A stretch of DNA of 64,000 bases from a virus, in the IMG/VR virus record IMGVR_UViG_3300043219_000566, positions 124,001-188,000 of that record; one strand, 5' to 3'. Every line of letters starts with the position of its first letter. Position 1 is the first letter of the stretch. The notes below the pieces were generated by a model. It made no database searches, had not been told where the DNA came from, and saw nothing but the letters and a program-made list of their open reading frames with translations. Positions 12,318-48,618 of the stretch are shown piece by piece. The translations under genes were made by a program, and so were the position numbers.

Positions 12318-13691
12318 TTAAGCAAGCGCGCTGAGTGCCGTCAAATTTCGCACAAAGTTGGTTTCGCCAGAAGAACGCCCATCTGTCGCCGCACGTGCGA
12401 ACGACACGACGTAGGCCGCGTACTCACCGGCGATAACGTCGGCTTGCGGCGGAACAGCGCCCGCGGACTTTGTCAACTGCGGTTCGCTAATTCCTTCGCA
12501 GGCGGCCTTGACTAGCGTGCGCCGGTGTGCAACCTCCGGCAGCAAACTGTAGTTGTTTCTGATGCCCCGAATCGTCGAGGCAACTTTGTTTGTAATTGGC
12601 CGAGTTGTACCGTCGTACGAACCATTCGCACACACTAGCTCGGTACAACCCGCCCGCGGCGAATTAGCAAATACGTCCCGCAACCCAACGCGGATCTGGT
12701 CATCAGAGACGTCCGCCGGTTTTTCGATGCCAGCCAGCGTCATGAAGCTGTTCAGCGGCAGGCAAATACCAGCGCGGTGCAACGCAGCCCAGAGGGCTCC
12801 ACGGTCCTCGCTGGCCTTCAAAATCGTTGCTACAGGCTCATCCAGCTCATGTAATTTCGCGACTCCGGCCATTTTCTGTAGCGCGCTACCATCCAGCATC
12901 TCAGCCAGCTGGCGCAACACCGCAGCCTTCTGTAACGCATAGGCCGAGCGAGTTACCGGAGCCAAGACATCCACTATGCCCATTAACTCGGCCAGCTCGG
13001 CTCCACCCAGCGTAGCGCCGTCAGCTGCGGCCTTTTCCAGCTTGCGGAAAGTGAACGCCACGCGATCGGCCCCGCGCCAGACTTTCGAGATGTCAAAGAA
13101 GTCCGGATGGTCGTTGATCACGCAGGCGATCTTGCCGTTCTCCATGATGCGACCCATGGCGCTGGCAGCGTGCTTGCAGTACTCCTTCCGGGTGCGCGCC
13201 TGATTGCCGCAGATGTAGCACACGTCGTACGGCACTCGGCAACTCATACTGACCGGAAACTCTCCGCGCTTTTCCAGCTCGTCCAGATCACTCGCGCATC
13301 TGTTGGAATCCAGCCCGACGATCAGCTCGACCCGGCCCATCGGCTCGTTGTAAGCCGCTGCCACTACCCGCCCGTGTGCTTTGGCTGGATCTCGGTTGTC
13401 GTGATTGTGGAAGTAGTGCGCCTTCATGAATGTCGGGTGGTACTTCATGTTGGCAGCCTTGGGGAACCAGTCCCCGTTGCGGTTCGGGCCGATAGTCTCG
13501 CCGTCACCCAACGCCAACAGATGCACCAGTTCCTCGCCTGGACGAGACGAGAGCTTACTGAAATCGAAGACCTGCGCTGCAGCGCGCTTGTGTAACCAGG
13601 CCGCATCGACCACGCCGCGCCCGTGTAACGGCACGATGGACGCTACCGCATCGTCGAATTGGAACGATCCGCTAAGCACAGACTTGATCAT
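12318..13691 (-). CDS. Prohead maturation protease (HK97/S78-like) with zinc-finger-like insertion
   Basis: A 457-residue protein. Residues 93-151 follow the caudoviral prohead protease pattern: a histidine motif (YFHNHDN, H95/H97), a GRV strand, MGRVELIVGLD, and a serine motif (FPVSMSCRV, S148 or S150). Just after the serine lies C158xxC161 with C172 and H174, a likely zinc site not usual in this family. The C-terminal 250 residues are helical and of unknown role, perhaps a scaffold-like delta domain cleaved on maturation. Its ATG overlaps the previous stop (ATGA). It lies immediately upstream of the probable scaffold. Confidence 0.75.
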   Translation of the reverse strand: MIKSVLSGSFQFDDAVASIVPLHGRGVVDAAWLHKRAAAQVFDFSKLSSRPGEELVHLLALGDGETIGPNRNGDWFPKAANMKYHPTFMKAHYFHNHDNRDPAKAHGRVVAAAYNEPMGRVELIVGLDSNRCASDLDELEKRGEFPVSMSCRVPYDVCYICGNQARTRKEYCKHAASAMGRIMENGKIACVINDHPDFFDISKVWRGADRVAFTFRKLEKAAADGATLGGAELAELMGIVDVLAPVTRSAYALQKAAVLRQLAEMLDGSALQKMAGVAKLHELDEPVATILKASEDRGALWAALHRAGICLPLNSFMTLAGIEKPADVSDDQIRVGLRDVFANSPRAGCTELVCANGSYDGTTRPITNKVASTIRGIRNNYSLLPEVAHRRTLVKAACEGISEPQLTKSAGAVPPQADVIAGEYAAYVVSFARAATDGRSSGETNFVRNLTALSALA

Positions 13692-17719: not shown

Positions 17720-18270
17720 TACTTCTGCCCCTGGAGCCGGTTCGTCAATTCGGCCAGAAACTGAGCCTGGTCGTCACCATCAGCCGCCCTTCCCGCACCG
17801 TATGCGCCCCCTACCGCGCCACCTATCGCTCCACCTTGCAGCATCCGCTTGAGCACGTGTAAGAGCCGCTTGCGCTTACCTTCCGGACCAGTCACTGCGC
17901 CAACTGCCCCGCCGCCCAACATTCCGACGCCCGCGCCAACGAGCCCGGACCTGGCCGCAGGATGGCTGAGCATGTCCTGCAATCCCGAGTCCTTAACCAA
18001 GCCCCGCCCCAGCTCGAACGCCGCCGACTTCCGCGCCTGCCGTCGCTTTTTCTTCTTGCTACTACGCGCGGCACATGAACGCTTTTCCTCAGAAAGCTGC
18101 TTGCCGATCCAGTGTCCCAGCCCGCGCATACCCAGCTCATTGAAGAACGTCACCTTCTGCAAATCACCAGAGTTCTCGTGGTAGCGCGCGCCCTTCCGGT
18201 AGATATCCATACCGCCCATGCTCGGCGGCGAGCGCTTCACGACAAGATCCCCAGCGTCGAGACTGCCCAT
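17719..18270 (-). CDS. Glycine-zipper small protein with FELGRxLxK motif
   Basis: A 183-residue protein (MGSLDAGDLVVKR). A basic segment (SSKKKKRRQARK) is followed by SAAFELGRGLVKDSG, a motif shared with other proteins here (5637-5924, 20580-20864). Two glycine zippers follow: SGLVGAGVGMLGGGAVGAV and LQGGAIGGAVGGAYGAG, likely membrane-inserting hairpins. The combination suggests a packaged, membrane-active virion protein, by inference. TAATG coupling to the previous gene. Confidence 0.65.
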   Translation of the reverse strand: MGSLDAGDLVVKRSPPSMGGMDIYRKGARYHENSGDLQKVTFFNELGMRGLGHWIGKQLSEEKRSCAARSSKKKKRRQARKSAAFELGRGLVKDSGLQDMLSHPAARSGLVGAGVGMLGGGAVGAVTGPEGKRKRLLHVLKRMLQGGAIGGAVGGAYGAGRAADGDDQAQFLAELTNRLQGQK

Positions 18271-20549
18271 TAACGCGCTCCCATCCGGACTTCCATGGCA
18301 TCGAAGTTCGGCGAGCCCTCGACCGGGCGCTGCTTGAGGAAGATCACCAGGTCGCCCAGCGACTTGCCGACGTTCTTGAGCTGATCCTCCAGCTCACCCA
18401 GGTTCTCCTGCCCGAAGCGATCGCGGAACTGCTCGTTGAGCCAGTAGTACATGAACAGAATCCGGTTGACCCGGTCCAAGCCCAGGATGATGTCCGATAG
18501 GTACTGCGTGATCATGTCGTCGCTGTCGGACGTGCGCACCAGCGAAGCGATCGCGCTGGTATCGAAGATCTCCTTCTGCCCCGTCTGCGCCGCTTCCATG
18601 ACCTGCTGCTTCTCGGGCTTGCCGAGGTAGCCCTGGACGTCCTGGCCCACCCCCATGTCAATCGGCAGAGTCTCATCCTGCGGATACTGCTCCATTGCCC
18701 CCGAGTAGTCGTCGTATCCCATCGGCGGCTCGGGGATCGGCGGAGCGTAGCCGATGTTGTTCTTCACGATGAAACGTACCCGCTTGCCCAGCTTCAAACC
18801 GTCGACAATGGACAATGCCTCGTTGGCACGCAACCCAGCGTCCTTGACCAACGACGTGATAATCTGGACGCGATTAAACGGCCCAACGTTGTCGACGTAG
18901 ACTCCCTCGGGCCTGCAGAACATAGTGAACTGCTCGGCCCCGGCCTTCAGCAGATTGGCTTCGACGTCGAGCAAGCTGGACGGATCGCTGAGCCCCCAAG
19001 TCTCGAAGCCGTCGCCGGTCTTCAACGTGAGCGCCTTGGCCTCGTCCGACACGAACAGCGTATTGCCGACCACGCGCAGCCCCCGATGGTCGTTGGTAAT
19101 CACCAGATGACTCAGCTCGGGAAAAGACTTGGGCGAGGTAGGTTCCTCACGCGTCGGGTCATTCGACGAGTTACGATCTACATCCCCGACAAACGGCAAT
19201 CGGTCTCCCTGCCCAAATTGCGTGATATCCTCGGCATTCGCTACCTCGGGCAACGCGCGCGGCTTGGTACCGGGATCGACCAACTGCGGGTCGACGTACA
19301 GCTCAACCTGACCGTCCTGTCCAGAAACCTTTCTCTTCACCTCGAACGCGACTGTGCTGCGCCCATTGGTAGCGATGATAGTCGCAATGTCGCCGACCTT
19401 CAGTTCCTTAACCGCTTTCGTCCCGGGCATAGTGGCATACTCGGGTAGGTCGTTGCCGGGCTTGTCCAGCGGCTTGCACCACAGGTTCTCCGGCCAGTTG
19501 TAGCTGAAGTTCTTGCTGTCGGTATCGACGACCAGCGCCGCTCGCGCGTAGCCCTTCCCGACTGCTACCGGACCAGGCATAATGAAAGCATCGACATACT
19601 CCCCGTCCGCCAGCAGCAACTGGTAGATCCCCGGCTCGGCCGGGTTCTGCAGTTTGGTGCCCTCGTCAGAGTGATAAGCCTGGTTCGCCTTCGCGCGCGC
19701 GTCCTTGACGACAACCCCGCCGCGCAGCAGCTGCTCGCAGTCCGCATCGCTCATTAGCCGCTGCGGCGCGCCGTGGTAGACGTTGACCAACCCAGGATGA
19801 CTGTTGCGTACGTCCTCCGCCATGTCGAACAAGATCGAGGAGCGCTTGACCGGATACGTGCGCCGCCGCGGCGCGGCCGCGGACTTCTCGCGCTTTTTCT
19901 GCACAGCAGGCTTGTGCATCAGCGTCTTCAGTTCGTGGAACCGCAGCACCGTGTTCGCGAAATCAGGATCGTCGCGCATGGTGCGAGCCAAGTGAACCGA
20001 GGTCCCGTAGTTGGCAGTCTTCTGCAGGAAAGTCGGCAAGTCGAGCAAGTCGAGGTACCGCTCGTCCAGCTTATCGAACATCCGCTCCGCTCCGGCAGCC
20101 CAAGGCTCCCAGTTGGCCTGGCGCGTGCTGAACAGCGAAGCCGGATTCCCGCCGCTGATCGTGTTGGACAACGTCGCTAAGTTCGGCTGCATTATCCCCA
20201 GCTGCTGCTCTTTCTGCGGCTCGCCTTCGCCCATGATGAACGGGCGGCGGTTGAGCAGGTAAGTCACCCAGTTGTCCTGGAGCGGAACGAACAGATCTTG
20301 GTTCTTGATGTAGATCAAGTTCTGCTTCAACTCGCCGTTCAGGAAGAACGACGGAACGAACAACATCTGCTCGCCGATCTTGAAGCCAAGTACCCCGACC
20401 CCGTGGGTCTGTTCCTCGTTGGAATCGATCACCTGGAATCCCAGCAAGTAGTCCAGAAGCGCTGGAGCCTTGTCCCGGAGCTGCGCGTGAGCCAGGTCGG
20501 CAAAAGTGATCTCGAAATCGCGGTCGGCCGGTTGAGCGATTGACGGCAT
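18270..20549 (-). CDS. Large unknown virion-region protein next to RNA polymerase gene
   Basis: A 759-residue soluble protein (MPSIAQPADRDFE). The N-terminal part is alpha/beta (FKIGEQMLFVPSFFLNGELK); residues about 210-240 are a basic linker (KKREKSAAAPRRR); the central part has SH3-like or beta-barrel strands (AVKELKVGDIATIIATNGRS); a linker rich in Pro and Asp leads to a helical C-terminal domain (SLVRTSDSDDMITQYL; LDRVNRILFMYYWLNEQFRD). No catalytic motif was identified. It is the first large gene downstream of the beta-prime C-terminal gene and could be a virion component associated with the polymerase; that is speculative. Confidence 0.65.
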   Translation of the reverse strand: MPSIAQPADRDFEITFADLAHAQLRDKAPALLDYLLGFQVIDSNEEQTHGVGVLGFKIGEQMLFVPSFFLNGELKQNLIYIKNQDLFVPLQDNWVTYLLNRRPFIMGEGEPQKEQQLGIMQPNLATLSNTISGGNPASLFSTRQANWEPWAAGAERMFDKLDERYLDLLDLPTFLQKTANYGTSVHLARTMRDDPDFANTVLRFHELKTLMHKPAVQKKREKSAAAPRRRTYPVKRSSILFDMAEDVRNSHPGLVNVYHGAPQRLMSDADCEQLLRGGVVVKDARAKANQAYHSDEGTKLQNPAEPGIYQLLLADGEYVDAFIMPGPVAVGKGYARAALVVDTDSKNFSYNWPENLWCKPLDKPGNDLPEYATMPGTKAVKELKVGDIATIIATNGRSTVAFEVKRKVSGQDGQVELYVDPQLVDPGTKPRALPEVANAEDITQFGQGDRLPFVGDVDRNSSNDPTREEPTSPKSFPELSHLVITNDHRGLRVVGNTLFVSDEAKALTLKTGDGFETWGLSDPSSLLDVEANLLKAGAEQFTMFCRPEGVYVDNVGPFNRVQIITSLVKDAGLRANEALSIVDGLKLGKRVRFIVKNNIGYAPPIPEPPMGYDDYSGAMEQYPQDETLPIDMGVGQDVQGYLGKPEKQQVMEAAQTGQKEIFDTSAIASLVRTSDSDDMITQYLSDIILGLDRVNRILFMYYWLNEQFRDRFGQENLGELEDQLKNVGKSLGDLVIFLKQRPVEGSPNFDAMEVRMGAR

Positions 20550-20920: not shown

Positions 20921-22774
20921 TCAGTAGACGCCCTGGGTCTCCAGCTCGCGCCCGAAAGTCTGCCCGCGCGCCAGCGAATGGCCCCAGTTCTGCCCGTGTA
21001 TCTCGGAAGTTCCCCCGCGTTGCGCCGCGTCCATGAAACCCTTGCCGATGTAAAATCCTTGGAGCCTGCGGAACCAGTCCGGATCGTGCAACGTGGTCTC
21101 CATGGCCCGGACCATGTGCGGCACAAACGGCGGTGGATCGTCGTGAACCGTGACACTGCCGACCTTGTGTTTCCGCATTGTCTTGAGCACGCTTGGCGTC
21201 AGACGCGTCCCGATCGAGTAATGCAACATCGGGCGCTCCAGGTACTTGCCGCGCGCCAGCGGTGGCGTCAGCGTCACGTTCCCGAACCGCGGCTGGTAAT
21301 TACGCGCCAGCTGGTCGTAGGAGATGATGTCGTCCGGCAGCGCTCCCTCTACCCCGTCCGGCTCAACCACGCGGACATGGTTGATGAGACCTCGGGCAAT
21401 GAGTTCGAGATTGCGGCGATTGACACCGATGCCTTGCTCCCGCAAGGTACGGCCCAGCTGCTGAACCAGATAGCGTCGTCCCTCTCCGACGTGTTTGTGC
21501 CGAACCACGTCAGCCGGGTTGGGAATTCCATCAGAAAGAACATCTCCAGCCTCCACCGCATCGCCCACCTTGACGTGCACAGGTAGATCAGGATGAACGT
21601 AGTGGCGCTCGGAATTCACCCAAACGTAACGCCCACCCTGGGGAGCATCTTCGATACGGCTCACCCGACCGTCGATGTCCGCTAGCGCCGCAGCGTTCTG
21701 GAACGACTTGGGTATCTGCACCAACTGATTGATCGCTTTGAAACCCTGAACTCCCGTTTCGCGTGCTGCACCGACCACTCCGGCCGCATGCTTCGCAGAT
21801 AGCTGCGCCTGAGAGATCGGCTCGCTGACAGCTTGAGACGCGGCGAGACCGATGTTATCGCCAATCGGCGACCAGCCCCCGCGCTCGCGGATACCAGCAG
21901 CAAGACGAGGCACCCCACGGCCACCAGCGGCAATAGGGGAATGAACAACAATTTCGTCATGACCGGAACGTATGAGTGCTTTAAGAATCGAGGGGGTGAG
22001 TACCGTCCCGGTAGCGAACTTCCCGTAGCCGCGGGCCAAGACTGCGCCCTCGTTGTCCTCATCGTCGGTCTCCACCGGCATGCCGGTCTCGGGCAACGGG
22101 TCCTCGTCCGTCACGATCAACGGGCTGGTGGCGTTCGAGAGCTGCTTGCCCAAAAACCCGGCGTCGGCCGTAGCCATCTTCAACGACACAATCCCCTTGC
22201 GGGTTCCGTAAGCTCCAGCAAAATACTCTGCCGGGCTCAGCCCCTCGCTGAAGTTGTGCGTAATCGGAATCGGGATAGGCCGGTCCTTGTGGTCCAGGAC
22301 CATCAGATCCGCCCCGCGGAGTGAAGAGAGATTCGCCGGGTTACCGCGCGCCCCGGACTCGATCGCGCGCGAGAAGCTATTGCCCTCCTCGACGCCCTCG
22401 GCATGCGTGCCTGCGCGCATCTCGTCCATGCGACTTGCCAGCAACTCGACGATCTTCTGGTCCTTCTGTTCGTCGCCCAACCGTTGATTCTGCATAATAC
22501 GCTGGAGCTGCGCATTGACCTCGCGCACGATACGCTGCTTCGTTTGACTGGATTTAAGATCGTCGAGAGAGAAGCTAGAACCGGTGCTGTAGGAAACATC
22601 GGCTCCAATCTGGTTCAAGGCATGAACGATGTCTTTGTAGCGCTCAGGATACCGGTCGGCGACCTCGCGCAGCAGTTGCTTCATTCCCTTTTTGTCCAAC
22701 ACACGAGCGTAGTCCTGCAACTCCTGCGGGAGCGCCTCGTTCACGAGCAGTTGTCCCACGGTTACAGTTCGCAT
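20921..22774 (-). CDS. RNA polymerase beta-prime subunit, C-terminal half (split)
   Basis: A 617-residue protein that begins where cellular beta-prime continues after the active-site region (TVTVGQLLVNEALP). In order it shows the GARGN motif (141-145), the bridge-helix region (FSEGLSPAEYFAGAYGTRKG, from 175, then MATADAGFL), a trigger-loop region (IGLAASQAVSEPISQAQLSAK, about 308-328, with H329), and a C-terminal region with RTLREQGIGVNRRNLELIAR matching the conserved clamp-side end. It supplies half of the catalytic centre; the other half is in the 24901-29298 product. It lies among virion genes, so it may be packaged. SD is weak; a strong hairpin sits just upstream. Confidence 0.93.
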   Translation of the reverse strand: MRTVTVGQLLVNEALPQELQDYARVLDKKGMKQLLREVADRYPERYKDIVHALNQIGADVSYSTGSSFSLDDLKSSQTKQRIVREVNAQLQRIMQNQRLGDEQKDQKIVELLASRMDEMRAGTHAEGVEEGNSFSRAIESGARGNPANLSSLRGADLMVLDHKDRPIPIPITHNFSEGLSPAEYFAGAYGTRKGIVSLKMATADAGFLGKQLSNATSPLIVTDEDPLPETGMPVETDDEDNEGAVLARGYGKFATGTVLTPSILKALIRSGHDEIVVHSPIAAGGRGVPRLAAGIRERGGWSPIGDNIGLAASQAVSEPISQAQLSAKHAAGVVGAARETGVQGFKAINQLVQIPKSFQNAAALADIDGRVSRIEDAPQGGRYVWVNSERHYVHPDLPVHVKVGDAVEAGDVLSDGIPNPADVVRHKHVGEGRRYLVQQLGRTLREQGIGVNRRNLELIARGLINHVRVVEPDGVEGALPDDIISYDQLARNYQPRFGNVTLTPPLARGKYLERPMLHYSIGTRLTPSVLKTMRKHKVGSVTVHDDPPPFVPHMVRAMETTLHDPDWFRRLQGFYIGKGFMDAAQRGGTSEIHGQNWGHSLARGQTFGRELETQGVY

Positions 22775-22789
22775 GCTCTACCAATACAA

Positions 22790-22813
22790 CGGGGCACGGC
22801 TAACCGCGCCCCG
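22790..22813 (-). other. Strong hairpin before the beta-prime C-terminal gene
   Basis: On the minus strand CGGGGCGCGG (22813-22804) pairs with CCGTGCCCCG (22799-22790) around TTAG: nine Watson-Crick pairs and one G-T. It is followed by TTGTATTGG, a weak T-run, and ends 15 bases before the ATG at 22774. It may be an attenuator or a translational control of the polymerase gene. Confidence 0.5.
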
Positions 22814-22844
22814 GCATTAACCTGGATGCAAGAAAGCGCGTGAA

Positions 22845-23072
22845 CTACGTCGGAACAGTGACGCACCGCACGTCTGAGCGCTTATGCAAACCCATCTGCT
22901 CACTAAGTTTGACGAAATCAGGTTCTCCTGCGCGAGTCAACGCAATCGTTCCGTCTTCGCGCGTCCACGTGATCAACAACAACGAGTCCTGGTCGTTGTA
23001 GACCGCCAACTGGTTCACGCCGTCGACGGACACCGGGGACGCTAATGCAGACTGTTGCAACACGATTTTCAT
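22845..23072 (-). CDS. Small unknown protein between RNA polymerase genes
   Basis: A 75-residue protein (MKIVLQQSALASPV) that looks like a small beta sandwich or Tudor-like fold (NQLAVYNDQDSLLLITWTRED) with a helix near the end. No family recognised. Its ATG overlaps the previous stop (ATGA), so it is translationally coupled. Lying in the polymerase cluster, it could be an accessory polymerase factor, but nothing in the sequence proves that. Confidence 0.6.
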   Translation of the reverse strand: MKIVLQQSALASPVSVDGVNQLAVYNDQDSLLLITWTREDGTIALTRAGEPDFVKLSEQMGLHKRSDVRCVTVPT

Positions 23073-23761
23073 CGGCTCAGATTCTTCAGTACGCGACCGA
23101 TTCTGTCCGCCGGTGCACCAGTGCCGGTCTTGGCGCTCGCGGAAGTTGTCATAGGACCAGCGGCCGCGGGGGAACCGGGCATACCAGGTACTGCGCCGAC
23201 ACCGACCGAAGGCATACCTGCGCCCATCGAGCCACCGCCGCCGCTGGGATCAGCGCCCATCGGAGGCGCGATGCCCATACCACTCGCGATCTGCTGCAAC
23301 AACCCCATCACTTCCTGATTGCCACCGCTGCCGCCGCCACCGCCACTGCTCTTGCCGCCCGACTGCTGACCCATCAAGAAGCCGTTGAGCGTGCCGATCA
23401 CCTGATCCATTTTGCTGTTCAGGCTCATCAGCTGCTCTTGCGGACTACCTCCGCCCTCGGGTCCTGGCGGCGGAGCGCCACCGTCGGGTCCTGGAGGAGG
23501 AGGAGGCAGAGCGCCACCCCCGGGTCCGGGGATTGGTCCGGCCCCCGCAGCATCCGGAGGCATAGGCATGCCCTCGGCACCCGGAGGCATCGCGCCCGGC
23601 GGCGGAGCGCCTGGGGGCATTGCGCCTGGCGGAGGTGCTCCACCTGCGCCGGGCTCTACCGGAGCAATTCCGCCCGCGTCTGCTGGGATGAAGGCGGACT
23701 TGTCGATCCGAGCCAGCTTCTCCAGCGCGACTTCCGCCAAACTGAGATTGAAATTACTCAC
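23069..23761 (-). CDS. Pro/Gly-rich low-complexity protein in RNA polymerase cluster
   Basis: A 230-residue protein. A short N-terminal helix (FNLSLAEVALEKLARIDKSAF) is followed by about 90 residues of Pro, Gly and Ala (GAGGAPPPGAMPPGAPPPGA), a short helix (SLNSKMDQVIGTLNGFLMG) and a Gly/Ser-rich tail with more Pro. It is probably disordered and a structural or scaffold-like virion component. The N-terminal LEKxARxDKSA pattern resembles the beginnings of other proteins here. No enzymatic motif. Confidence 0.65.
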   Translation of the reverse strand: MSNFNLSLAEVALEKLARIDKSAFIPADAGGIAPVEPGAGGAPPPGAMPPGAPPPGAMPPGAEGMPMPPDAAGAGPIPGPGGGALPPPPPGPDGGAPPPGPEGGGSPQEQLMSLNSKMDQVIGTLNGFLMGQQSGGKSSGGGGGSGGNQEVMGLLQQIASGMGIAPPMGADPSGGGGSMGAGMPSVGVGAVPGMPGSPAAAGPMTTSASAKTGTGAPADRIGRVLKNLSR

Positions 23762-24323
23762 CGGTTGTCTCCGAGTCGCACAAGCTCGCGGCTACCTTGA
23801 GGATACATAAAGCAACGGAACCCGGCGAGCTGGCCTGGTCTTGAGCTTGCTTGCCGAGATCCGCTTCCAATTTCGTCACTGCCAACGCAGCACCTTTGGC
23901 AAACAACTCCAGTTCCCGCCCCGCGTACGGATCGACCAAGCCGAGCGCAAACGACACCGAGTTTCCGACTTCGGCTTCCTTCTCGACGATGGCCAACTTC
24001 GCGCCCTTGGTGAAGATCGCCAACGCTTCGCTCAGCGTGTACCGGTGCTCGTCACTAGATTCTTTGGCTGCAGCTCCGACCGGGGGAGCAGAAATTCCCC
24101 CAGACGCGCCACCAGGGGCAGCAACTGGCGGTCTGGGTTGATCGTCGGACCTCCGCCTCTTGGGGTCACCGCCGCCCGTGAGCACCGGATCAATGCTGCC
24201 GCCGTTGCCGCTTTTCTTGCCTGCTTCCAGCTTGGACCCCCCGCCAACCGGGAAGTGCTCCCGCGGCTTACGGGTCCTTTTTAGCTCAGCGGCCCGCTTG
24301 AGAATTGTCTGCACATTGACCAA
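23754..24323 (-). CDS. Unknown protein with disordered N-terminal half, likely TTG start
   Basis: A 189-residue protein from a TTG at 24323, chosen because AGGAGGT lies five bases upstream and overlaps the previous stop; ATGs further upstream would overlap the previous gene heavily and lack an SD. The first 95 residues are basic, Gly/Pro-rich and probably disordered. The last 95 form a helical domain (SEALAIFTKGAKLAIVEKEA; ALAVTKLEADLGKQAQDQAS) with two similar repeats of GAxLA. Function unknown. Confidence 0.6.
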   Translation of the reverse strand: MVNVQTILKRAAELKRTRKPREHFPVGGGSKLEAGKKSGNGGSIDPVLTGGGDPKRRRSDDQPRPPVAAPGGASGGISAPPVGAAAKESSDEHRYTLSEALAIFTKGAKLAIVEKEAEVGNSVSFALGLVDPYAGRELELFAKGAALAVTKLEADLGKQAQDQASSPGSVALCILKVAASLCDSETTGE

Positions 24324-24333
24324 AGGACACCTC

Positions 24334-24636
24334 CTAACGATCAGTGAGCCCAGCGTCGACTGTCTTCTTGCCGGAGCCACGGCCCATGTAGCCGTCATGG
24401 TCGACTTCGGCATCCGTGGTGATATTGACCGGTGTACCAGGCACACCGTCGCGGCGCTGATCCGGATGTGGATTCGGCTGATCTGTGTGCTCGCCCGACA
24501 CGCGACTTACGGCTTCGTCGTCGCCGCGGTACGCGGGCAAAGTGCTACGCTTGGCCCCGTCGGAATGCGAACCCTTCACATTCCCGGTCGGCGCATCGAT
24601 GCCGAGAATATCGGCAGCAGTTCTTCCAACGGCCAT
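24334..24636 (-). CDS. Small protein with RTAxDILG N-terminus (pair member 1)
   Basis: A 100-residue hydrophilic, probably disordered protein (MAVGRTAADILGIDAPTG) with AAAGGAGAT upstream of the ATG. The RTAxDILG motif at its N-terminus is shared with the 62-residue protein encoded immediately upstream (RTAKDILG), suggesting a short recognition peptide or a duplication. The rest is rich in Asp, Gly, Pro and His. Function unknown; it lies between the two RNA polymerase genes. Confidence 0.6.
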   Translation of the reverse strand: MAVGRTAADILGIDAPTGNVKGSHSDGAKRSTLPAYRGDDEAVSRVSGEHTDQPNPHPDQRRDGVPGTPVNITTDAEVDHDGYMGRGSGKKTVDAGLTDR

Positions 24637-24651
24637 GAGCTATCTCCTTTG

Positions 24652-24840
24652 CTACCTGGACGAATCCCAAAACGGCGGGAACGGCTTGCCGCCCGGCAAC
24701 GCGTCCTTTTGAGCTTTGAACGTATCTTGGTCACGACCCGTCGCGCTGATCTCGGGGTCGGTATTGCCTTGAATGTAGTCACCCCGGACGTCAGCTAGTC
24801 CGAGAATGTCCTTCGCTGTGCGTGGAACTGTTGAAGCCAT
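24652..24840 (-). CDS. Small protein with RTAxDILG N-terminus (pair member 2)
   Basis: A 62-residue protein (MASTVPRTAKDILGLAD) with a GGAGA SD. It shares RTAxDILG with the next gene (24334-24636) and is otherwise polar with a Trp-containing C-terminus (GKPFPPFWDSSR). It is the first gene after the fused beta/beta-prime gene and could bind the polymerase; that is speculation from position. Confidence 0.55.
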   Translation of the reverse strand: MASTVPRTAKDILGLADVRGDYIQGNTDPEISATGRDQDTFKAQKDALPGGKPFPPFWDSSR

Positions 24841-24900
24841 GACAAATCTCCGTGCCCATTCTGTCCCGGCGTAACCAAGCCTGTCAAAAAAGTCGTCTGG

Positions 24901-27900
24901 CTACCCCATTACTTTCACCCGGTCGCTGGCATTAATTTCGCCCCGACGATAAGCCCTCCGCACGTCGCCAGCACTCTGAAAAACACGCACTTGCTTATCA
25001 CTGGGCTTGCCGGTGGCTTCATAGAGCCCGTGCAAAAACTCCTGCCCCGGCAGATAGTGTACGTCGAAGGAACGCACGTTCAACAAATTGCGGCTAGGCA
25101 TCAACTTGTCAATCGACTCCTGCACCGCCTCGTCGGACACGGGTACGTGAAATTGCTCAGCATCTCCGTCAAAGTCCGCGCCGAAGCCCCCGGTTGTAAT
25201 CGGCGGCACCTGCAGAGTTTTGCCCTTCGTCAATACCGGGTAAGCCGCCATGATCCCGTAACGGTGCAACGTCGGAGCCCGATTGATAATAACCGGGCGA
25301 CGTTCCATCTCTCGCAGCAACGACTCGCGCGCCTTGGGGTCTTCGTCCGCGATCAACTGCGCCGCGCGCATAGCAGGCATGCCCCGCCGGACCAGATCGC
25401 GCATGATAAACGGACGGTAGAGCACCCAGGCTTTCTCTTCAGGCAACCCCACGTGGTCCATGTCGAGCGACGGATTGGGCGTAATCACGGCCCGCCCTAC
25501 CAGATCCGAAGAAGTCCCGATGACCTTTCGCTGAAATGCACTGAACTTGGGCGAGGACCTGAGCCCCAACGAATGCGCCAAAATGCCGCGGACATTTTTC
25601 TCTTGCAATTTGGGCTGAATCGGATCGCTAAAGCCGGTTAGAGACCTGAACGTGTCGTAGAGCGCCAGCCGCTCGTCTCCGACAGAATCAGGACCCAATT
25701 CGTCCGATAAATCCCGCAGGTTGTTGTTAGCGAGCATCAGCTCCTTGTAGAGATAATTCGGGTGCGCAATCGCGGTGCGCGTGGACTGCTTGACAATCGG
25801 GCGGTACTGCGGCGGCAACACCGGTATCTTGGACAGCACCAGCTCAGCAGGCTTGATCCCGGTCTTCTCGAACATCGTCAACGTGCGCAGACGTTTTACT
25901 GCATCGTCACGTTTGCTCTTAGCTCCGCTGCGGATAAGCTGCTTCTGGGTCTCGATCTGCTTGGGAACGTCGATTGCTTCCAGCGCGCGCTTGATCGCCT
26001 GACCACCGGTGCCCCCACCGCCGACTTCGCGCTGACCAGACAGAACTTCACGATACTGCTTGACGGTCAACCCTAGCAATCGCCTGATCGGGTCCTCCAT
26101 GACCGGGTTCGGCAGCGGCTCGTGGAGGTCGATATGGGACCAGCCCGTCCCGCTATGACCTCCAGTCCGCGCCATGTCGAACAGCCCGCCCGGCAGCGGA
26201 TTCATCGTGTCGAAGTTCAACATCTCGGGAGACGTCACCGGACCGCGGGATAGCTGATCGATATCCTTGTCGGTCAGCGCCATGATGTGCACGTAGTTGC
26301 CCGACTTCTTCACGTTGATTCCCGCGGCTTTAAGATCGTCGAGGAACTTCCGGTAGACGAAAGGCACCTCGGGCGTAGGCGGAGGATAGCCCAACCGGAA
26401 AGCTCGCCAGAAGTCATCGTTCCGCTGCCCCCGGATCAGCTTGGCGTCGCGCAACACCTCGGTCGCCCCGGCGCTGAGCAGACTGGTCGTTTCCAAATTC
26501 CCAAGGCGCTTGGCAGACTGCCCCTTCTGCCGACCAGGCACCATGTCGGCCGTGTACCCAGCCTCGTCCCCACGCCCCGACAGCTTCGACTCGGCGGTGT
26601 GATGTAGCTTCATGAAAAACTGGTTGCCGACGAAGACCTTGGGGATCTTGGCGTTGCGCACCGGGTCGTGCAGATCCTCGGTATCGGACATTCCATGCTT
26701 CTTCAGCTCGTGTTGCACGAACTCCAGCATGTTGACGTCGCTGAACCCGGAAACCTTGTAAGGCTGCCCCGTGCGCGCCGCGACCTTGCCGAGCGCCGCC
26801 TCCAGCATGAGCGCCGGATTGGTTCTGGAAATCACCCCGAACGGATGGATCAAAACCTGTAGCGGGTTGCCTTCGGCATCGCGGGGCATCTGATCATCAG
26901 GAACCACACGACTGACAACACCCTTGCTAGCGAAGCGATTGCTCAACTTGTCCCCGACCTGCATGGGATGGTAGCTCTTGACCACGACGTTCACGGTCCG
27001 CGGCCCGCGATGCACGTCGGTTACGACGCCCGAGACATCATGCTCCCACGTGCGCGTCGTGTTCATCCAGCGGTCCTTGGCCAAACGGTGCAGCACGCCC
27101 TGGCCCTTTGGTTGCCGCTTGGTCAACGACAGCACCAACGGATCGTCCTTCTTCACGATAGAGCCCGGTTTGATGACGCCGTTGTCATCGAACTGGTCCA
27201 TGATGACCCGCGGGTACTTGGCTGGGAACTTCGCCAGGAAAGAGCGCTTAGCCACCCGCTCGCCGGGCTCCAGATCCACGTCGTGCTGGTACATGTGCTC
27301 GGACGTTAGCTTCTTCGCCGCGCCCTCGCTGATCACGATCGCGTCCTCGTAGGTCATGCCCTTGAAGGGCAGGTAACCAACGCGCAGATTCTTGCCGATC
27401 GCCAGCGTGCCTTCGTCGTCGGTGAAGTTGCTCTTGGCCAGCAGCTGGCCAGGCTGCACCTGCTGCCCCGGAGAGACCAGCGGAGTCGAATGGACAAATG
27501 ATTTTCTGTTGAAGGGAAAGTTAGTGTACAAATCGTAGCGCGTTACGCCCTTCGGCGTCTGAATCGCGATATGGTCTTTGGCGATCTTCTTCACCACTCC
27601 GGCCGCGCCAGAACGCACCACCCCCATCCGCGATCCGAAATGACGCTCGAACGAATCGTCGCCGTCATCGCCGAGCCGCGCCGTCTGCACCAACGGGGCC
27701 TCGGGCTTCTGCATCGCCAGCGCCTGGGTCAGCATCCGGCTGGTCATCAGCATGCGATGACCCTTGATAGCGGACAAGAACGGTACCAGATGCGCCGGAC
27801 TGGACATCATGTCCTCGTGCGACGGCACCTGGTAGTCCACCTGCTCCGGGTCGACGAACTTCAACCGCCCGCGCACCATGGCCCGCGCCGGGCGTTCCTC

Positions 27901-29298
27901 GTCTCTAGCTTTCTCCACCTCGCCCGGAAACGCGATAACCGAGCGCGCAGCGTCCATCGAAGAAACCAATCGGGTACGCCCGGCCTTGTCGAGCATGGGA
28001 GTATAGAGCTGCCCGTCGTCGCCTTTGACCGTCTTGTAGGCCAGCCTGTTGTCCACCCCTGCTTTGCCGGACTCCGACGTACGAATCGGATCGATGAACC
28101 CCAGATACGACGGTTGCACCGCCCGGCTCTCGTCGGGAATCGCGTCCATCGAAGGAATCCCGCCCGCGCCCATACGCGAGATGCGCTGGAGCTGGTCGTG
28201 AATGTCGATCGGATTAACTTCCTCCAACGGCATGCCGAGCCCAGAGTCCAATAGCGCTGATTGCAGCTGACGCGTTCGCGCGTCCGTATTGACAAGCGGG
28301 TCCAGCGAGCGACGGAACGTAGCGCGCCACAACAGATTGCGCGTCGTGCGCCCCGCGTCCTTGCGCACCCGCTCGGAAATCAGATCCTCGGGACCCATGA
28401 CCGTCTGGTAGGCAATGTTGTCGCGGTCGTCGGTGTCGCCGGTGCCCTGCGAGATCGCAACTAGCTTCTGAGTTGCCTTGAGAATCGCCTCGGGAGTCAC
28501 GTTGGTATAGCGCTCGCCCAGCGTTTCCTGAGTGACTTCGGGGTCCAGCTGCATCTTCGCAAACGTTTCCTGCAGATCCCTCACCTTGTTGACGGGATCG
28601 TCGGGCGAACGCTCGCCGTCCCCCAGCGCCGCCCGCCGCTGGGTGAATTTGGCCCAGGCTTTATCGAGATGCCGGACGTTGTCCTGCAGGGAATTGCTAG
28701 CCAGTAGATCGCGGCCCCAGGCCTTCGATAGCTGCTCGTTGGTCACACCCAACGAACGCAGCAACGTGTAAAGCGGAAATTTCGACTGCCCAACCCGTAC
28801 ATGAAACACGCCGCTCTCCGCGTCCATAAAGACCCGGAAGCCCGGCCCGGAGCCAGGCATGATATTGAAGTGGCTCTCCAGCTCACCAGTCTCTTTCTTG
28901 CGCGTGTAAACGCCGGGCTTGAGGCGCATCTGGTTGGCGAGCGTGTACTCGTTACCTCTGTAGATGAACGTGCCGCGGTCGGAGACGTGCGGAACCATCG
29001 CAACCCGGCTTCGCCGCTCATCGATCACCTGCCCAGTCGCCTTGTCGATCATGCGCCAGGTGCCAGACAGCGAGCGGTGCATCGTCTTTCCGCCGATGAT
29101 CGCGCGCTTCTGCCGCTCCAGCCCGGCGGGCTCAGGCTGATCGTAATCGACATCGCCCAGCTCCACGCGGTACTGCGTGTTCTCGATCGGATAGTGATCC
29201 TGAGATGATTGACGTACGTTAGCGTAGACGCGCTGGCGCAAGGCGCTCACATCGTCGAAAGCCCGAGTCGTTGGTTCCTTGGTTCCAAGCACATCCAC
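24901..29298 (-). CDS. RNA polymerase beta plus beta-prime N-terminal half, fused
   Basis: A 1465-residue protein joining bacterial-type beta and the first half of beta-prime. Beta landmarks in order: RGTFIYRGNEYTLANQMRLK (lobe/protrusion start), a rifampicin-region match (QLQRISRMGAGGIPS then YLGFIDPIRTSESG), LRVGYLPFKGMTYEDAIVIS, GDKLSNRFASKGVVSRVVPD and FFMKLHHTAESKLSGRGD near the beta end. Beta-prime landmarks follow: KIPVLPPQYRPIV, LVGRAVITPNPSLDM, INRAPTLHRYGIMAAYPVL, and the catalytic loop GADFDGDAEQFHVP with the three Asp at 1375, 1377 and 1379. It ends after RRGEINASDRVKVMG, where cellular beta-prime runs on into the part encoded at 20921-22774. Start is GTG with a poor SD, so the exact N-terminus is uncertain. 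No alpha or omega gene is visible. Confidence 0.95.
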   Translation of the reverse strand: MDVLGTKEPTTRAFDDVSALRQRVYANVRQSSQDHYPIENTQYRVELGDVDYDQPEPAGLERQKRAIIGGKTMHRSLSGTWRMIDKATGQVIDERRSRVAMVPHVSDRGTFIYRGNEYTLANQMRLKPGVYTRKKETGELESHFNIMPGSGPGFRVFMDAESGVFHVRVGQSKFPLYTLLRSLGVTNEQLSKAWGRDLLASNSLQDNVRHLDKAWAKFTQRRAALGDGERSPDDPVNKVRDLQETFAKMQLDPEVTQETLGERYTNVTPEAILKATQKLVAISQGTGDTDDRDNIAYQTVMGPEDLISERVRKDAGRTTRNLLWRATFRRSLDPLVNTDARTRQLQSALLDSGLGMPLEEVNPIDIHDQLQRISRMGAGGIPSMDAIPDESRAVQPSYLGFIDPIRTSESGKAGVDNRLAYKTVKGDDGQLYTPMLDKAGRTRLVSSMDAARSVIAFPGEVEKARDEERPARAMVRGRLKFVDPEQVDYQVPSHEDMMSSPAHLVPFLSAIKGHRMLMTSRMLTQALAMQKPEAPLVQTARLGDDGDDSFERHFGSRMGVVRSGAAGVVKKIAKDHIAIQTPKGVTRYDLYTNFPFNRKSFVHSTPLVSPGQQVQPGQLLAKSNFTDDEGTLAIGKNLRVGYLPFKGMTYEDAIVISEGAAKKLTSEHMYQHDVDLEPGERVAKRSFLAKFPAKYPRVIMDQFDDNGVIKPGSIVKKDDPLVLSLTKRQPKGQGVLHRLAKDRWMNTTRTWEHDVSGVVTDVHRGPRTVNVVVKSYHPMQVGDKLSNRFASKGVVSRVVPDDQMPRDAEGNPLQVLIHPFGVISRTNPALMLEAALGKVAARTGQPYKVSGFSDVNMLEFVQHELKKHGMSDTEDLHDPVRNAKIPKVFVGNQFFMKLHHTAESKLSGRGDEAGYTADMVPGRQKGQSAKRLGNLETTSLLSAGATEVLRDAKLIRGQRNDDFWRAFRLGYPPPTPEVPFVYRKFLDDLKAAGINVKKSGNYVHIMALTDKDIDQLSRGPVTSPEMLNFDTMNPLPGGLFDMARTGGHSGTGWSHIDLHEPLPNPVMEDPIRRLLGLTVKQYREVLSGQREVGGGGTGGQAIKRALEAIDVPKQIETQKQLIRSGAKSKRDDAVKRLRTLTMFEKTGIKPAELVLSKIPVLPPQYRPIVKQSTRTAIAHPNYLYKELMLANNNLRDLSDELGPDSVGDERLALYDTFRSLTGFSDPIQPKLQEKNVRGILAHSLGLRSSPKFSAFQRKVIGTSSDLVGRAVITPNPSLDMDHVGLPEEKAWVLYRPFIMRDLVRRGMPAMRAAQLIADEDPKARESLLREMERRPVIINRAPTLHRYGIMAAYPVLTKGKTLQVPPITTGGFGADFDGDAEQFHVPVSDEAVQESIDKLMPSRNLLNVRSFDVHYLPGQEFLHGLYEATGKPSDKQVRVFQSAGDVRRAYRRGEINASDRVKVMG

Positions 29299-35812: not shown

Positions 35813-35824
35813 GTAGCGCGCTAC
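35813..35824 (-). repeat. Palindrome GTAGCGCGCTAC at portal gene stop
   Basis: A perfect copy whose TAG is the stop codon of the portal gene. It is followed on the minus strand by GGCATTTTTGG, like the copies at 20907 and 50495. Confidence 0.75.
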
Positions 35825-37635
35825 ATCCCGCCCGGTGCCCCGCCCGGTGCCCCACCCGCCATCTGGGCGATGACCTGGTCCTGACCAACGCTCCGGGCTT
35901 GGCTGCGCATGTTCTGGAGCTTCTGCTTCACCACGGCATGCAGAGTCTCGTCGGTCTGCCGCAACTGGTTGAGCTGGCGTCGTCGCTCACCTTCCGGCAT
36001 CGCCAGCAGCTGCTGAGCCATCTGCTCAGCCTGATCGAGCACATCTCCCGGCTGCATCGCCCCTCCGCCACCGCCGCCGCCCGGCATCCCCGGCGCACCA
36101 CCACCAGCAGCCATCGGTGGCATCCCCTGACGGGCCGCGCTGGTTTCGTTCAACCGTCGCTGCATATCCTGCGCCTGCATCTCTTCCTTCTCGATCTTCT
36201 GCTGCTCCTCGCGCAACATGCGTTGCTCGTCGAAGATGCGCCGGATCTCGTCGCGCACGTCGATCCCAAACGGAGCCAACGCCGTCTGATCCGAGATCTT
36301 GTTCGCAGCCGACAACTGCAACCGGACCAACCGCGCTTCCATGTCGTCAGCGCGAGTGACCGGAGTCATACGCCCACGCGCTCGCTCCCAGTTGAAAACC
36401 ATCGAGAGATTTTCGAGCAGCCAGTTTATCCAGTTGTTGAACCCGGCAACCAGGTGCGGCCACGTTGCCTCGAACAGCCGCAAAGCCGGAGGCATGGCCT
36501 TTAGCTCCAACGAGCCCTTGTAGAGATCTGCCGGGACGCCGCACGAATTAAGCAGCTCGTCCAGCGCCACCGTTATCAGCTCGTGCGGTGCAAGCTGATT
36601 AGCCTCGCCGCCCAGCGCCTGATACTCAATTGGAAAAGGCAAACTGTGCATCGCGAGTGGATCACGCCGATGCTCGGCAATCATGCCGCGCACCCGCGAC
36701 GAGAAATTGCCCAAGTTAGCGTTCAGCAGCGGATCGACTTTGCCCTGCGGACCGCCCGGACGTCCGGGCGTAACTACGCGCCAGGGCACGATGTAGTCCA
36801 TGGCCAGCGCCTCGTTGTAGCGCTTGAGCACCTGGATGTAGAACCCCTGCTTGAAATTCGACAAGGCCCGTGGGATACCCCAGCCGCGGTTGTGCAGCCC
36901 CGCCAGCGTGTCCTCCTTGAGATGGAACACGATGCCGTCGTTGAACCCGAACAACTGATCCTTCTGGATCGCTTCAATGTATTCCCAGGGGGTGTACTGC
37001 AAATAGAACGGCACGCCACGCTGGATCTGACTTTTGAAATCTTGAGGAATACGCCACAAGTAACGGTGGTCGTGGCTAAGCGGATGGAACAAAATCTCCA
37101 TCTGGTGCGGGCTCCAGCGGATGATCCGCAACCGGTCCTGCTCCATCGAGCGGCGGTCCACCACATCGAACTCGCCGTTGCATTTACACTTCGGGCACTG
37201 CCCGTAGAACTTAAAGCCCCGGAACGTATAGAGCATACGCTCGATCGGACGATCCAACTTGCAGCTCTTGCAACGCAGATAGCGTCGGAACGGAACGAAA
37301 ATGCTCGTAAACGAGTTACCGTAGAACAGAAAATCGAGCCCCACCATCCGCAGTTGCGCAGCGACTCGCAGCGTATCGTCCAGAAATTCGTTGTACTGCT
37401 TCTTGATCTCGTCGGCGACGTCCAGGATCTCGACCTTGGTCAGGAAATACGCACACACGCGCTCCAGCGCCATCCGGTACGTACCGTTGTGCGCCCAGAA
37501 CAACTCACACCAGCGGAGCATGCTCCGCAAGTTGCGAGGCGTGTACATCCCGGAGTAGTCGAGGAAAGGGTCGGGAAACCACTGAACCCCGCCGCTGGAC
37601 CCGGACGATGAGTTAGGAACAATGCTATCTGGCAT
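35821..37635 (-). CDS. Portal protein with zinc-finger insertion
   Basis: A 604-residue portal-like protein. The N-terminal and middle parts have the helical/clip/stem layout of large portals (YRMALERVCAYFLTKVEILD; WEYIEAIQKDQLFGF; ALRLFEATWPHLVAGFNNWI), with a long helical barrel-type C-terminus (MLREEQQKIEKEEMQAQDM). Unusually, residues 122-150 hold CxxC...CxxC (C122, C125, C147, C150), a probable structural zinc site. The C-terminal 100 residues are Gly/Pro/Met-rich. Position upstream of the head gene block supports it. The large terminase was not found in the window. Confidence 0.75.
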   Translation of the reverse strand: MPDSIVPNSSSGSSGGVQWFPDPFLDYSGMYTPRNLRSMLRWCELFWAHNGTYRMALERVCAYFLTKVEILDVADEIKKQYNEFLDDTLRVAAQLRMVGLDFLFYGNSFTSIFVPFRRYLRCKSCKLDRPIERMLYTFRGFKFYGQCPKCKCNGEFDVVDRRSMEQDRLRIIRWSPHQMEILFHPLSHDHRYLWRIPQDFKSQIQRGVPFYLQYTPWEYIEAIQKDQLFGFNDGIVFHLKEDTLAGLHNRGWGIPRALSNFKQGFYIQVLKRYNEALAMDYIVPWRVVTPGRPGGPQGKVDPLLNANLGNFSSRVRGMIAEHRRDPLAMHSLPFPIEYQALGGEANQLAPHELITVALDELLNSCGVPADLYKGSLELKAMPPALRLFEATWPHLVAGFNNWINWLLENLSMVFNWERARGRMTPVTRADDMEARLVRLQLSAANKISDQTALAPFGIDVRDEIRRIFDEQRMLREEQQKIEKEEMQAQDMQRRLNETSAARQGMPPMAAGGGAPGMPGGGGGGGAMQPGDVLDQAEQMAQQLLAMPEGERRRQLNQLRQTDETLHAVVKQKLQNMRSQARSVGQDQVIAQMAGGAPGGAPGGM

Positions 37636-48200: not shown

Positions 48201-48608
48201 GGGGCGTAATTCGTCGAAAGCAAAACCGGTGCCACCCCCGGCCTTCTGGATGATGGCCGTGTCCTTGATCGCCTGAAAAATGCCACGAGTATCGTCTGGC
48301 ACCGGCAGCACGAAGCACGCGCTCAACAACCCCATCCGTCTGCCGCTGTTCATCAGCGTTGGACTATTGGGCATGAAGCGGCCGGAGCGCATCAGTTCGT
48401 AGAACCGCCCGCTCCACTCGTCACGCTGCGCCTCGTCCTCGCATCCAGCGACGTGGTCAGCCACGCGCTTGAACATCTCGTCGGGCGTTTCCGTGATCTC
48501 CCGTTCGTTCCGTATGAGATAGCGATTACGCAGAACTCGAACTGCGTTTTCAGTGAGAACTGGAACTTCGGGAACAATAGCCGACGCGGTACGTGACAAT
48601 GTTGACAC
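45216..48608 (-). CDS. nrdJ: Class II (adenosylcobalamin-type) ribonucleotide reductase with intein
   Basis: Reduces ribonucleotides to deoxyribonucleotides. I start it at GTG 48608 (SD AAGGAGT), giving 1130 residues; of these 252 are an intein (see separate entry). Landmarks: SPTLMNSGRR, LSACFVLPV with a catalytic Cys, GGGTGFAFDELRP, ATNP/CGEQPLMPNESCNLGS once the intein is removed, VAPTGTISIIANASCGIEPL, and a C-terminal GELVWAEGCQKCSVCGEG with redox/zinc Cys. No small-subunit gene is nearby, as expected for class II. Two 11-base direct repeats and a promoter at 49012-49040 lie upstream. Confidence 0.93.
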   Translation of the reverse strand: MSTLSRTASAIVPEVPVLTENAVRVLRNRYLIRNEREITETPDEMFKRVADHVAGCEDEAQRDEWSGRFYELMRSGRFMPNSPTLMNSGRRMGLLSACFVLPVPDDTRGIFQAIKDTAIIQKAGGGTGFAFDELRPCGAFVSSSGGQSSGPIAFWRVFSEATSAIQQGSFRRGANMAMMRVNHPDIIKFLFAKQDLRQFENYNISVKVDDEFMELVTKRPGAPFIVTWPDREGDGWLIPKEIVERCRKAVQAGVASDGQPREMDICYGIQDLTLTGQAIVAGEQDQYLTVGDVMDLIVKNAWQTGEPGLFFIDRIRESEATPAAGLIQATNPCVTGDTQILTIDGPRSFEELVESGVGSTLVHAWDSDTKLPVIRMMRDIRRTEHAADIIEVEFDSGLKVRCTAGHNFRTFRGNKITAQDLRIGQSVRAYAVSRHRDGHQRAHAWVANRCAHQWVHRMALDCFGVEIPEGLVTDHIDRNPDNNRPENLRVMTPEEHNSRHYPEREAGGFGRHGWKTAAAEVHAKIADGVRRYYGDNHKVVAIRSAGRAAVYNGTVDDVHTYVIVDPEYRGDSAAGLWSGVVSCNCGEQPLMPNESCNLGSLNLGRYVRPFYIEHPDACNPDSLSADERDDLVDWDRLQDDICTSTRLLDNVVSVNRYPTENIERICHTNRKIGLGVMGFADALIRLGVRYDSEGGLRWGERFMKFVNDNAISASQGLAEERGAFENYEQSRWAARLDRPLRNACVTSVAPTGTISIIANASCGIEPLFSFVFQRQILGGETMMECHPDFAELAQQQQFDSPELQQHMFDNGTLQDAKKVPAPMKEIFRTARDVSPEWHVRMQAAFQRHTTSSISKTINMPHEATESSVREAYILAYASRCKGVTVYRNGCRANQPMALSKSSEQDEVLVVPDVPHFRVPVEIPEFMHATRTRYHSAYGNLHMQISLELTPDGRYRERELFFNLGRSGDGVHPMIEVFGRLASLILRLDGSLELVIEQMRSHVLGNHPSRNGSSNKATSPPNELAMALLSYFAKTQAFRDDDGFLTQLPDVRPGPNKRPEPVASSVVAAAQVSGGNGHGVERSQAFLDRVNSAMAMTGTYRVPCQTLDCLGELVWAEGCQKCSVCGEGACG
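46857..47612 (-). other. Intein with HNH homing endonuclease in ribonucleotide reductase
   Basis: A 252-residue in-frame insertion interrupts the conserved NP|CGEQPL site of the reductase, residues 333-584. It begins with Cys in CVTGDTQILTIDG (block A), has a TAGHNFRT block B, an HNH-type endonuclease (TDHIDRNPDNNRPENLRV plus HNSRHYPE) and a block F (GTVDDVHTYVIVD). The final residues are SCN followed by the extein Cys, so the penultimate residue is Cys, not the usual His. It should splice out to restore the enzyme and may home to empty alleles. Confidence 0.92.
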
Positions 48609-48618
48609 AACCCACTCC

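Follow-up and report, generated by a model that had tools for sequence, protein, structure and literature searches.

Here we describe an RNA polymerase of a virus in which the beta subunit and the N-terminal half of beta-prime form one protein, and the C-terminal half of beta-prime (the C-half) is encoded by a second gene. Both genes lie in the stretch analysed here (the window), 64,000 nucleotides that correspond to positions 124001-188000 of the IMG/VR virus record IMGVR_UViG_3300043219_000566, which comprises 216,501 bases in all. From sequence comparisons and predicted structures, it is probable that they encode the catalytic core of a two-chain, alpha-less, sigma-dependent, bacterial-type phage virion polymerase, whose parts would have been fused once and later split.

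The fused frame matches beta and beta-prime domains both in Pfam (RNA_pol_Rpb2_6, E 3.8e-44; Rpb1_2, E 9.4e-22) and in NCBIfam (rpoB, E 3.8e-81; rpoC, E 4.4e-68), and its best profiles are the beta/beta-prime models PRK09603 (E 1.6e-96) and PRK14844 (E 1.3e-94), which we take to represent the RpoBC proteins of Helicobacter and Wolbachia. The second frame matches the profile rpoC_TIGR (E 6.5e-63), on which the fused protein stops at position 533 and the C-half resumes at position 550; in an alignment to Salmonella RpoC, the former ends at about residue 550 and the latter starts at about residue 569. These E-values exclude a chance match. The sequence GADFDGD occupies residues 1373-1379 of the fused protein, and H329 of the C-half corresponds to the trigger-loop histidine (H936 in Escherichia coli). 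An initial annotation, made from the letters of the DNA alone, had recognized beta landmarks followed by beta-prime landmarks in a frame of 1465 residues, and the continuation of beta-prime, with the bridge helix and the trigger-loop H329, in a frame of 617 residues. The profile matches reaching to E. coli/Salmonella residue 550 or so bear out the first of these claims, and the alignment from about residue 569 onwards, together with the predicted model, the second.

AlphaFold2 models were obtained for residues 266-1465 of the fused protein (predicted local distance difference test score, pLDDT, 87.6; predicted template modelling score, pTM, 0.81) and for the whole C-half (pLDDT 89.5, pTM 0.80). 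The former superimposes on bacterial beta (9dvs_C) with a Z of 40.4 over 639 residues (root-mean-square deviation, rmsd, 2.7), and the latter on Staphylococcus aureus beta-prime (8x6f_D, residues 557-1185) with a Z of 32.0 over 544 residues (rmsd 4.8). The comparison with two-barrel polymerases that the initial annotation had proposed as a check returned bacterial beta and the C-half of beta-prime. The VIA-align alignment of the fused model spans mainly beta (model residues 1-735), the beta-prime part resting on sequence. In the C-half model, a helix of 36 residues (181-216) fits the bridge helix, and residues 308-330 and 344-353 fit the trigger helices. Taken together, beta and beta-prime homology, DxDxD, bridge helix and trigger loop, all features of two-barrel RNA polymerases, are present; alpha was not detected.

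Relatives were collected from viral contigs (six scans) and from genome contigs (one scan), and the loci were classified with profiles built here; they represent the best 80 of each alignment scan, and the class counts are therefore not an unbiased sample. In the first census, in which loci of the same record were merged where known, 129 loci had the fused and split layout; in 12 fused ones the contig held no C-half, 11 carried a stub of beta-prime on beta, 4 were single chains, 10 were cell-like and 7 incomplete; loci of one contig may occur twice before dereplication, also among the 129. Of a second set of 160 loci, 149 were single chains, 3 had the fused and split layout, 5 were fused with no C-half, and 3 were undecided. 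The 7 incomplete records were left out before counting, and 287 inputs were reduced to 243 rows by removing rows less than 60% filled and rows more than 95% identical to another. The 233 phage rows among them comprise 101 of the fused and split type (the window included), 113 single chains, 9 stub forms and 10 fused forms without a C-half; the other 10 rows are cell-like. Complete separate beta and beta-prime genes were found in none of the 233, but they do exist in more distant phages such as Carin-5.

Apart from the window, 94 of the fused and split records have both halves in a single locus and on the same strand, 609-5874 bases apart (median 1586), whereas 6 of the 101 have them in separate loci of the same record (34 kb from each other in L116, for example). 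The layout is also found in cultured phages, namely Salmonella phage Arash and the Vibrio phages D69, D148 and D181, where, as in the window, it stands behind a portal gene; in D148 and D181 the beta part is additionally broken by a homing endonuclease gene (D181, which is L018, was compared with D69, and D148 is taken from the listing). The single-chain form, in which unsplit beta-prime is joined to beta, has a median frame of 2090 residues over its 113 rows; in 109 of them one frame holds the start of beta and both parts of beta-prime, and the other 4 (including L164) are without the beta start there. This sister group, made up of L090, L091, L093 and most of L215-L374, has no published description that we found. 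The N and C parts of beta-prime are only 5-36 residues apart (median 5) in 76 single chains, so the split falls on a natural seam. The stub forms consist of three pieces: beta carrying a stub of beta-prime that spans about 60-74 profile columns (49 in L168); an N core of beta-prime encoded on its own, with some 385 residues (333 in L168); and the C-half. They are L145, L147, L149, L151, L156, L157, L165 and L171, plus the long-branch L168.

The catalytic positions were counted over the 243 dereplicated rows, with E. coli numbering taken from the alignment with Salmonella; the functional roles of the numbered residues are presumed ones. The aspartate triad of DFDGD is complete in 120/120 split-type rows, and in the single-chain rows its three positions are kept in 113, 111 and 110 of 113, the remainder being N, perhaps misaligned at the inserts found there. 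The equivalents of beta K1065 and K1073 occur in all 233 phage rows and that of R1106 in 232 of them. The trigger-loop histidine is present in 108 of the 109 split-type rows with a letter at that position (the other has S) and in 113/113 single-chain rows. Furthermore, in a seed alignment of ten sequences, each of the eight phage sequences lacks the beta-prime zinc ribbon and retains the clamp helices of beta-prime that bind sigma.

Three trees were built: FastTree with 243 rows, IQ-TREE (LG+C20, short search) with 35 rows, from which L164, L168 and L184 were left out, and a third one with 25 chosen rows, in which Rhizobium phage Y65 is represented by beta-prime only. FastTree and IQ-TREE agree in placing the phage polymerases in a single clade apart from the cell-like rows. 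The split forms make one clade, with support of 100 (243 rows), 100 (35 rows) and 99 (25 rows), and in the 25-row tree both Carin-5, whose beta and beta-prime are separate, and Y65 fall outside the fused clade, with support of 100. Eight of the nine stub forms fall in one group next to Arash and D69 (support 99, FastTree, 243 rows), with L168 elsewhere; Carin-5 is also a long branch, and sampling is uneven. The simplest order of events, and the likely one as judged from the sequences, is one fusion, one split and then a second split leaving a stub on beta. An earlier fusion is suggested because a beta-prime stub attached to beta is hard to explain otherwise.

The evidence for a virion location comes from the published proteome of Arash, whose proteins Gp206 and Gp216 are 31% and 27% identical to the two proteins of the window. 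In the Arash particle, Gp206 has 3516 spectra, the most of all, with 128 unique peptides, Gp216 has 1210 (40), the sigma factor Gp10 has 467 (24), the portal protein 877 (32) and the capsid protein 1333 (30) (PMC10585845). By our own arithmetic this corresponds to 2.3, 2.0, 2.0, 1.5 and 4.3 spectra per residue, respectively, values that are compatible with a 1:1:1 holoenzyme of Gp206, Gp216 and Gp10, spectral counts being rough. The authors propose a role in early transcription or, alternatively, carry-over (PMC10585845). The suggestion of a virion polymerase made in the initial annotation finds support in these data, with that reservation of their authors.

A homologue of Gp10 is encoded in the record, outside the window (G000:C1:112537-113394; 27% identity, E 3e-18; Sigma70_r3, E 4e-12). 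Among 48 long records, 44 match Sigma70_r3, with both architectures represented and 36 matches exceeding the curated cut-off; it is matched in none of five other phages (T4, phiKZ, Y65, Carin-5 and IME392), though Carin-5 has an annotated sigma beside its polymerase genes. Alpha (PF01193, RNA_pol_L) was detected in 13 of 14 control genomes and in 0 of 22 records, that of the window included; some of these 22 may be incomplete, Arash being labelled complete. A second, odd sigma-like factor is encoded in the window (51697-52284, minus strand), a protein of 195 residues that combines a Cro/C1-type HTH_3 domain (E 2.7e-5) with sigma-70 region 4 (E 8.5e-14).

According to the explanation that we propose, the first chain, with DFDGD, and the second, with bridge helix and trigger loop, would assemble into one active site. 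The fusion of beta to beta-prime may have taken over the scaffold role of the alpha dimer, a substitution suggested because no alpha gene was detected. In turn, the Gp10-like sigma would dock on the clamp helices that have been kept, and the holoenzyme would be packaged, enter the cell with the DNA and transcribe early genes independently of the host polymerase; ejection into the cell is plausible. Regarding its history, a single fusion would have been followed by a cut at the seam after the catalytic barrel and, in one sub-branch, by a second cut that left the stub on beta. The broader proposition, towards which we lean only slightly, is that a phage lineage made the bacterial pair into one alpha-free, sigma-dependent, virion-carried chain of about 2100 residues, and that a sub-lineage recut it at the seam used in cyanobacteria and jumbo phages, in a succession of fusion, fission and second fission with a stub.

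Several observations weigh against this explanation. The shared active site is deduced from homology and from separate models of each chain. The trigger loop is altered: R933 is present in 0/109 split-type and 28/113 single-chain rows, and F935 is replaced by K in 104/109 split-type rows, whereas the single-chain rows keep F in 104/113; in addition, the position of N458 is G in the window, and N is found in only 56/120 split-type rows. The single-chain forms appear as sister or basal grade to the split clade with support of only 69, 71 and 89, L164 and L168 are long branches, and the trees contain no cyanobacteria. The virion evidence belongs to a relative at 31% and 27% identity, whose authors allow carry-over, and several non-structural enzymes are also in the Arash list, some of them with hundreds of spectra but only 2 unique peptides, for example Gp183 with 932 spectra (PMC10585845). 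Finally, 4 of the 48 long records are without a Sigma70_r3 match, the 44 matches stand at the level of the domain and need not all come from Gp10 homologues, and sigma region 2 (Sigma70_r2) is not detectable in the record of the window.

These points leave room for an active phage polymerase that is made in the cell for middle or late genes and whose presence in Arash particles reflects the carry-over of an abundant enzyme. Its authors name this alternative themselves, metabolic enzymes are in the same virion list (PMC10585845), and phiKZ and AR9 do possess a separate non-virion enzyme (PMC7598289). We regard it as rather unlikely, given that the polymerase genes sit in the head module between portal and capsid, that the profile search of the record detected no further polymerase of this type, and that Gp206 has the most spectra of the particle and 128 unique peptides, against 30 for the capsid and 32 for the portal protein (PMC10585845). 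A hybrid of the phage chains with host subunits (alpha, omega or the host sigma) would agree with the failure to detect alpha in 22 records, and with the near-bacterial sequence and the retained clamp helices. It is more doubtful still, and we hold it to be improbable, as a Sigma70_r3 protein of their own is found in 44/48 records, the sigma factor Gp10 is in Arash virions (PMC10585845) and the jumbo phage enzymes work without alpha (PMC7598289).

The remaining alternatives concern the split itself. Intein-like inserts are common in this polymerase, and locus L168 resembles a naturally split intein at DFDGD, so a split intein might be imagined to rejoin both halves after translation. However, the fused chain of the window ends 2 residues past the conserved domain and the C-half starts 4 residues before it, which leaves no room for intein halves and refutes a split intein for the window; among the split rows, the median length of the tail beyond the domain is 3 residues, and the chance that this reading holds is minimal. 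Inteins as the cause of the splits found little support, with no insert seen near the stub site (column 65) among inserts within one domain model, and only 5-36 seam residues in 76 single chains. A programmed frameshift is ruled out by the distance of 2.1 kb between the halves and by the genes that lie in this gap. An assembly error, which the initial annotation had named beforehand as what would overturn its reading, or a decaying gene pair derived from normal rpoB and rpoC, has in its favour only the unusual layout itself. It is excluded for practical purposes by the same layout in 100 other dereplicated records and in cultured phages, together with the conservation of the catalytic residues. 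The two-chain virion polymerase is the explanation that we retain as probable.

How does this polymerase compare with known systems? The virion and non-virion RNA polymerases (vRNAP and nvRNAP) of jumbo phages such as phiKZ and AR9 contain neither alpha nor omega, and their beta-prime is split after the catalytic barrel, in the same place as the cut in the window (E. coli residues around 550/569) (PMC7598289). Unlike the window, in which beta is whole and joined to beta-prime and sigma genes are present, the phiKZ/AR9 type also has a split beta and no recognisable sigma (PMC7598289). Assignment to that type was rejected, given the one-piece beta and the proteins with Sigma70_r3 and Sigma70_r4 in the record. 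Cyanobacteria have split RpoC1/RpoC2, as plastids also do, with a separate beta and with alpha, and their C-half starts 12-20 residues further on than the phage one. The phage C-half obtains bit scores of 137-140 with other bacteria versus 92-99 with cyanobacteria; a cyanobacterial origin of the split has to be set against this better match and against the unsplit chains that are sister or basal to the split clade, in trees without cyanobacteria. Helicobacter and Wolbachia RpoBC resemble the phage protein in carrying beta and then beta-prime in a single chain, with beta-prime unsplit and alpha present. The coliphage IME392 also has separate genes for the N and C parts of beta-prime, so that the seam is a reused one.

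Another group of reference is mReC (Weinheimer and Aylward 2020), tailed phages known from metagenomes, whose beta and beta-prime are of bacterial type and stand apart from cells (PMC7481178). The capsids detected in that group, 8 among 97 contigs, all belong to PF07068, and in the covered parts of that paper fusion is mentioned only for crAss-like phages (PMC7481178). PF07068 was found in 0 of 56 of our records (0/48 and 0/8), some of which are fragments; a first search, of the 48 records, was silent in the control genomes too, and T4 and others were added as controls in the second, where T4, Y65, Carin-5 and IME392 are positive. An assignment to mReC is not made, this capsid being absent from the matches. 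Among the controls, the Cobetia phage Carin-5 (L378) combines a capsid of the T4-type family PF07068 with separate, unsplit beta-prime and beta genes beside a sigma gene, and the Escherichia phage IME392 (L379) combines it with a beta-prime split into N and C parts. L246 and L372 come from metagenome 3300017989, which is the source of 2 of the 3 named mReC representatives, a common source that does not imply sequence identity. A gene encoding RNA polymerase beta and beta prime is mentioned at the base of the mReC branch (PMC10159854), and a fused phage polymerase may thus have been met before without discussion of its layout, as far as the covered parts of that paper go. The crAss-like gp66 and the P23-45 enzyme hold both barrels in one chain and are carried, or proposed to be carried, in the virion; they are very divergent and belong to another clade (PMC10770324), in contrast with the near-bacterial sequences described here. 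Fused-barrel derivatives of multisubunit enzymes are mentioned there, the present clade being unnamed in the parts covered (PMC10770324). In the main text of the Arash paper, as far as covered, Gp206 and Gp216 are annotated as beta and beta-prime subunits or as hypothetical, and neither fusion nor split is mentioned (PMC10585845).

Our literature search, whose coverage extended neither to preprints nor to most subscription papers, found no account of a polymerase in which beta is joined to the N-half of beta-prime and the C-half is encoded separately. The initial annotation had called the arrangement a distinct architecture; this stands for the combination, which is undescribed in the literature searched, but the cut site was already known from jumbo phages and the architecture is common to the whole phage clade. 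The new elements are the joining of beta to a beta-prime that bears the known cut, and the sister group of single chains.

To date, the jumbo phage polymerases that have been studied are encoded by many genes and have no sigma, and those single-chain phage enzymes that have been characterised are highly divergent. The clade described here is near-bacterial in sequence, has no detected alpha and has sigma genes of its own, with single-, two- and three-chain versions side by side. It makes testable whether a fusion can replace alpha in assembly, how the enzyme copes with a cut inside beta-prime, and how a complex that measures about 260 kDa with its sigma (an estimate from chain lengths) is packed and delivered; as Arash is a culturable member with a published virion proteome, bench testing is possible. 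If the proposed history is true, a fused chain can acquire this cut independently, phage polymerases that share the split site need not descend from cyanobacterial ones, and the fusion of beta and beta-prime can stand in for the alpha scaffold. Such an independent split would weaken the argument from a common split site for a cyanobacterial ancestor of the jumbo-phage polymerases.

The genomic context of the two genes is summarized in Table 1. They are separated by a gap of 2126 bp (about 2 kb in the initial annotation) with five small open reading frames (ORFs), as that annotation had stated. Homologues of four of the five are found in L001, the nearest relative, where they also stand between the halves and keep their order; the Pro/Gly-rich one has no Pfam match. 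The order portal, polymerase, Gp218 homologue, capsid is common to the window and Arash. The portal, capsid and protease-like genes received no firm name from Pfam or PHROG and were named by homology to Arash, and it is this homology that confirms the place of the polymerase between portal and capsid genes noticed at first.

Table 1. Polymerase genes, their parts and neighbouring genes in the window.
Feature	Position	Strand	Remarks
Fused gene: beta, then N-half of beta-prime	24901..29298	-	1465 aa (amino acids), GTG start
Beta part of fused protein	26275..29298	-	residues ~1-1008; profile match reaches residue 1008
Beta-prime N-half within fused protein	24910..26193	-	residues 1036-1463; without zinc ribbon, clamp helices present
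DFDGD catalytic Asp motif	25162..25176	-	residues 1375-1379 of fused protein
Beta-prime C-half	20921..22774	-	617 aa, ATG start
Bridge helix	22127..22234	-	residues 181-216 of C-half; fit in predicted model
Trigger loop and helices	21716..21853	-	residues 308-353 of C-half; H329 at 21788-21790
62-aa ORF between halves	24652..24840	-	homologue in same position in L001
100-aa ORF between halves	24334..24636	-	homologue in same position in L001
230-aa ORF between halves (as listed; start may be internal)	23754..24446	-	weak match only, L002, E 0.002
Pro/Gly-rich 230-aa ORF between halves	23069..23761	-	homologue in same position in L001
75-aa ORF between halves	22845..23072	-	homologue in same position in L001
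Portal-like protein, 604 aa, upstream of polymerase	35821..37635	-	24.6% identity to Arash Gp204, E 8.7e-71
Homologue of Arash virion protein Gp218, 759 aa, directly after C-half	18270..20549	-	E 3e-6 over 92 residues
Homologue of Arash structural protein Gp222	12318..13691	-	38% identity, E 6e-44; weak PHROG 18299 (head maturation protease), E 2.9e-5
Major capsid protein, 314 aa	8994..9938	-	31% identity to Arash Gp226, E 7.6e-38

In-frame inserts of more than 120 residues are present inside the polymerase in at least 43 of the 233 phage rows (for example L001, L127, L130 and L321); the count sees only inserts within one domain model, and is a lower bound that missed L002, which has one too. 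Many of these inserts carry intein hallmarks and others are not intein-like, with hot spots at DFDGD, the bridge helix and the trigger loop. In L168 (4786-9162), beta-prime is broken in the DFDGD region by apparent split-intein halves with an ORF of 358 residues between them. Elsewhere in the window, the large chain of a ribonucleotide reductase (45216-48674, minus strand) contains an internal HNH_3 domain and a weak intein-splicing match (E 4e-4). Moreover, a protein of 585 residues (31795-33552, minus strand) matches 2'-5' RNA ligase and acetyltransferase, with a weak match to Acb1 (anti-CBASS; E 0.0016).

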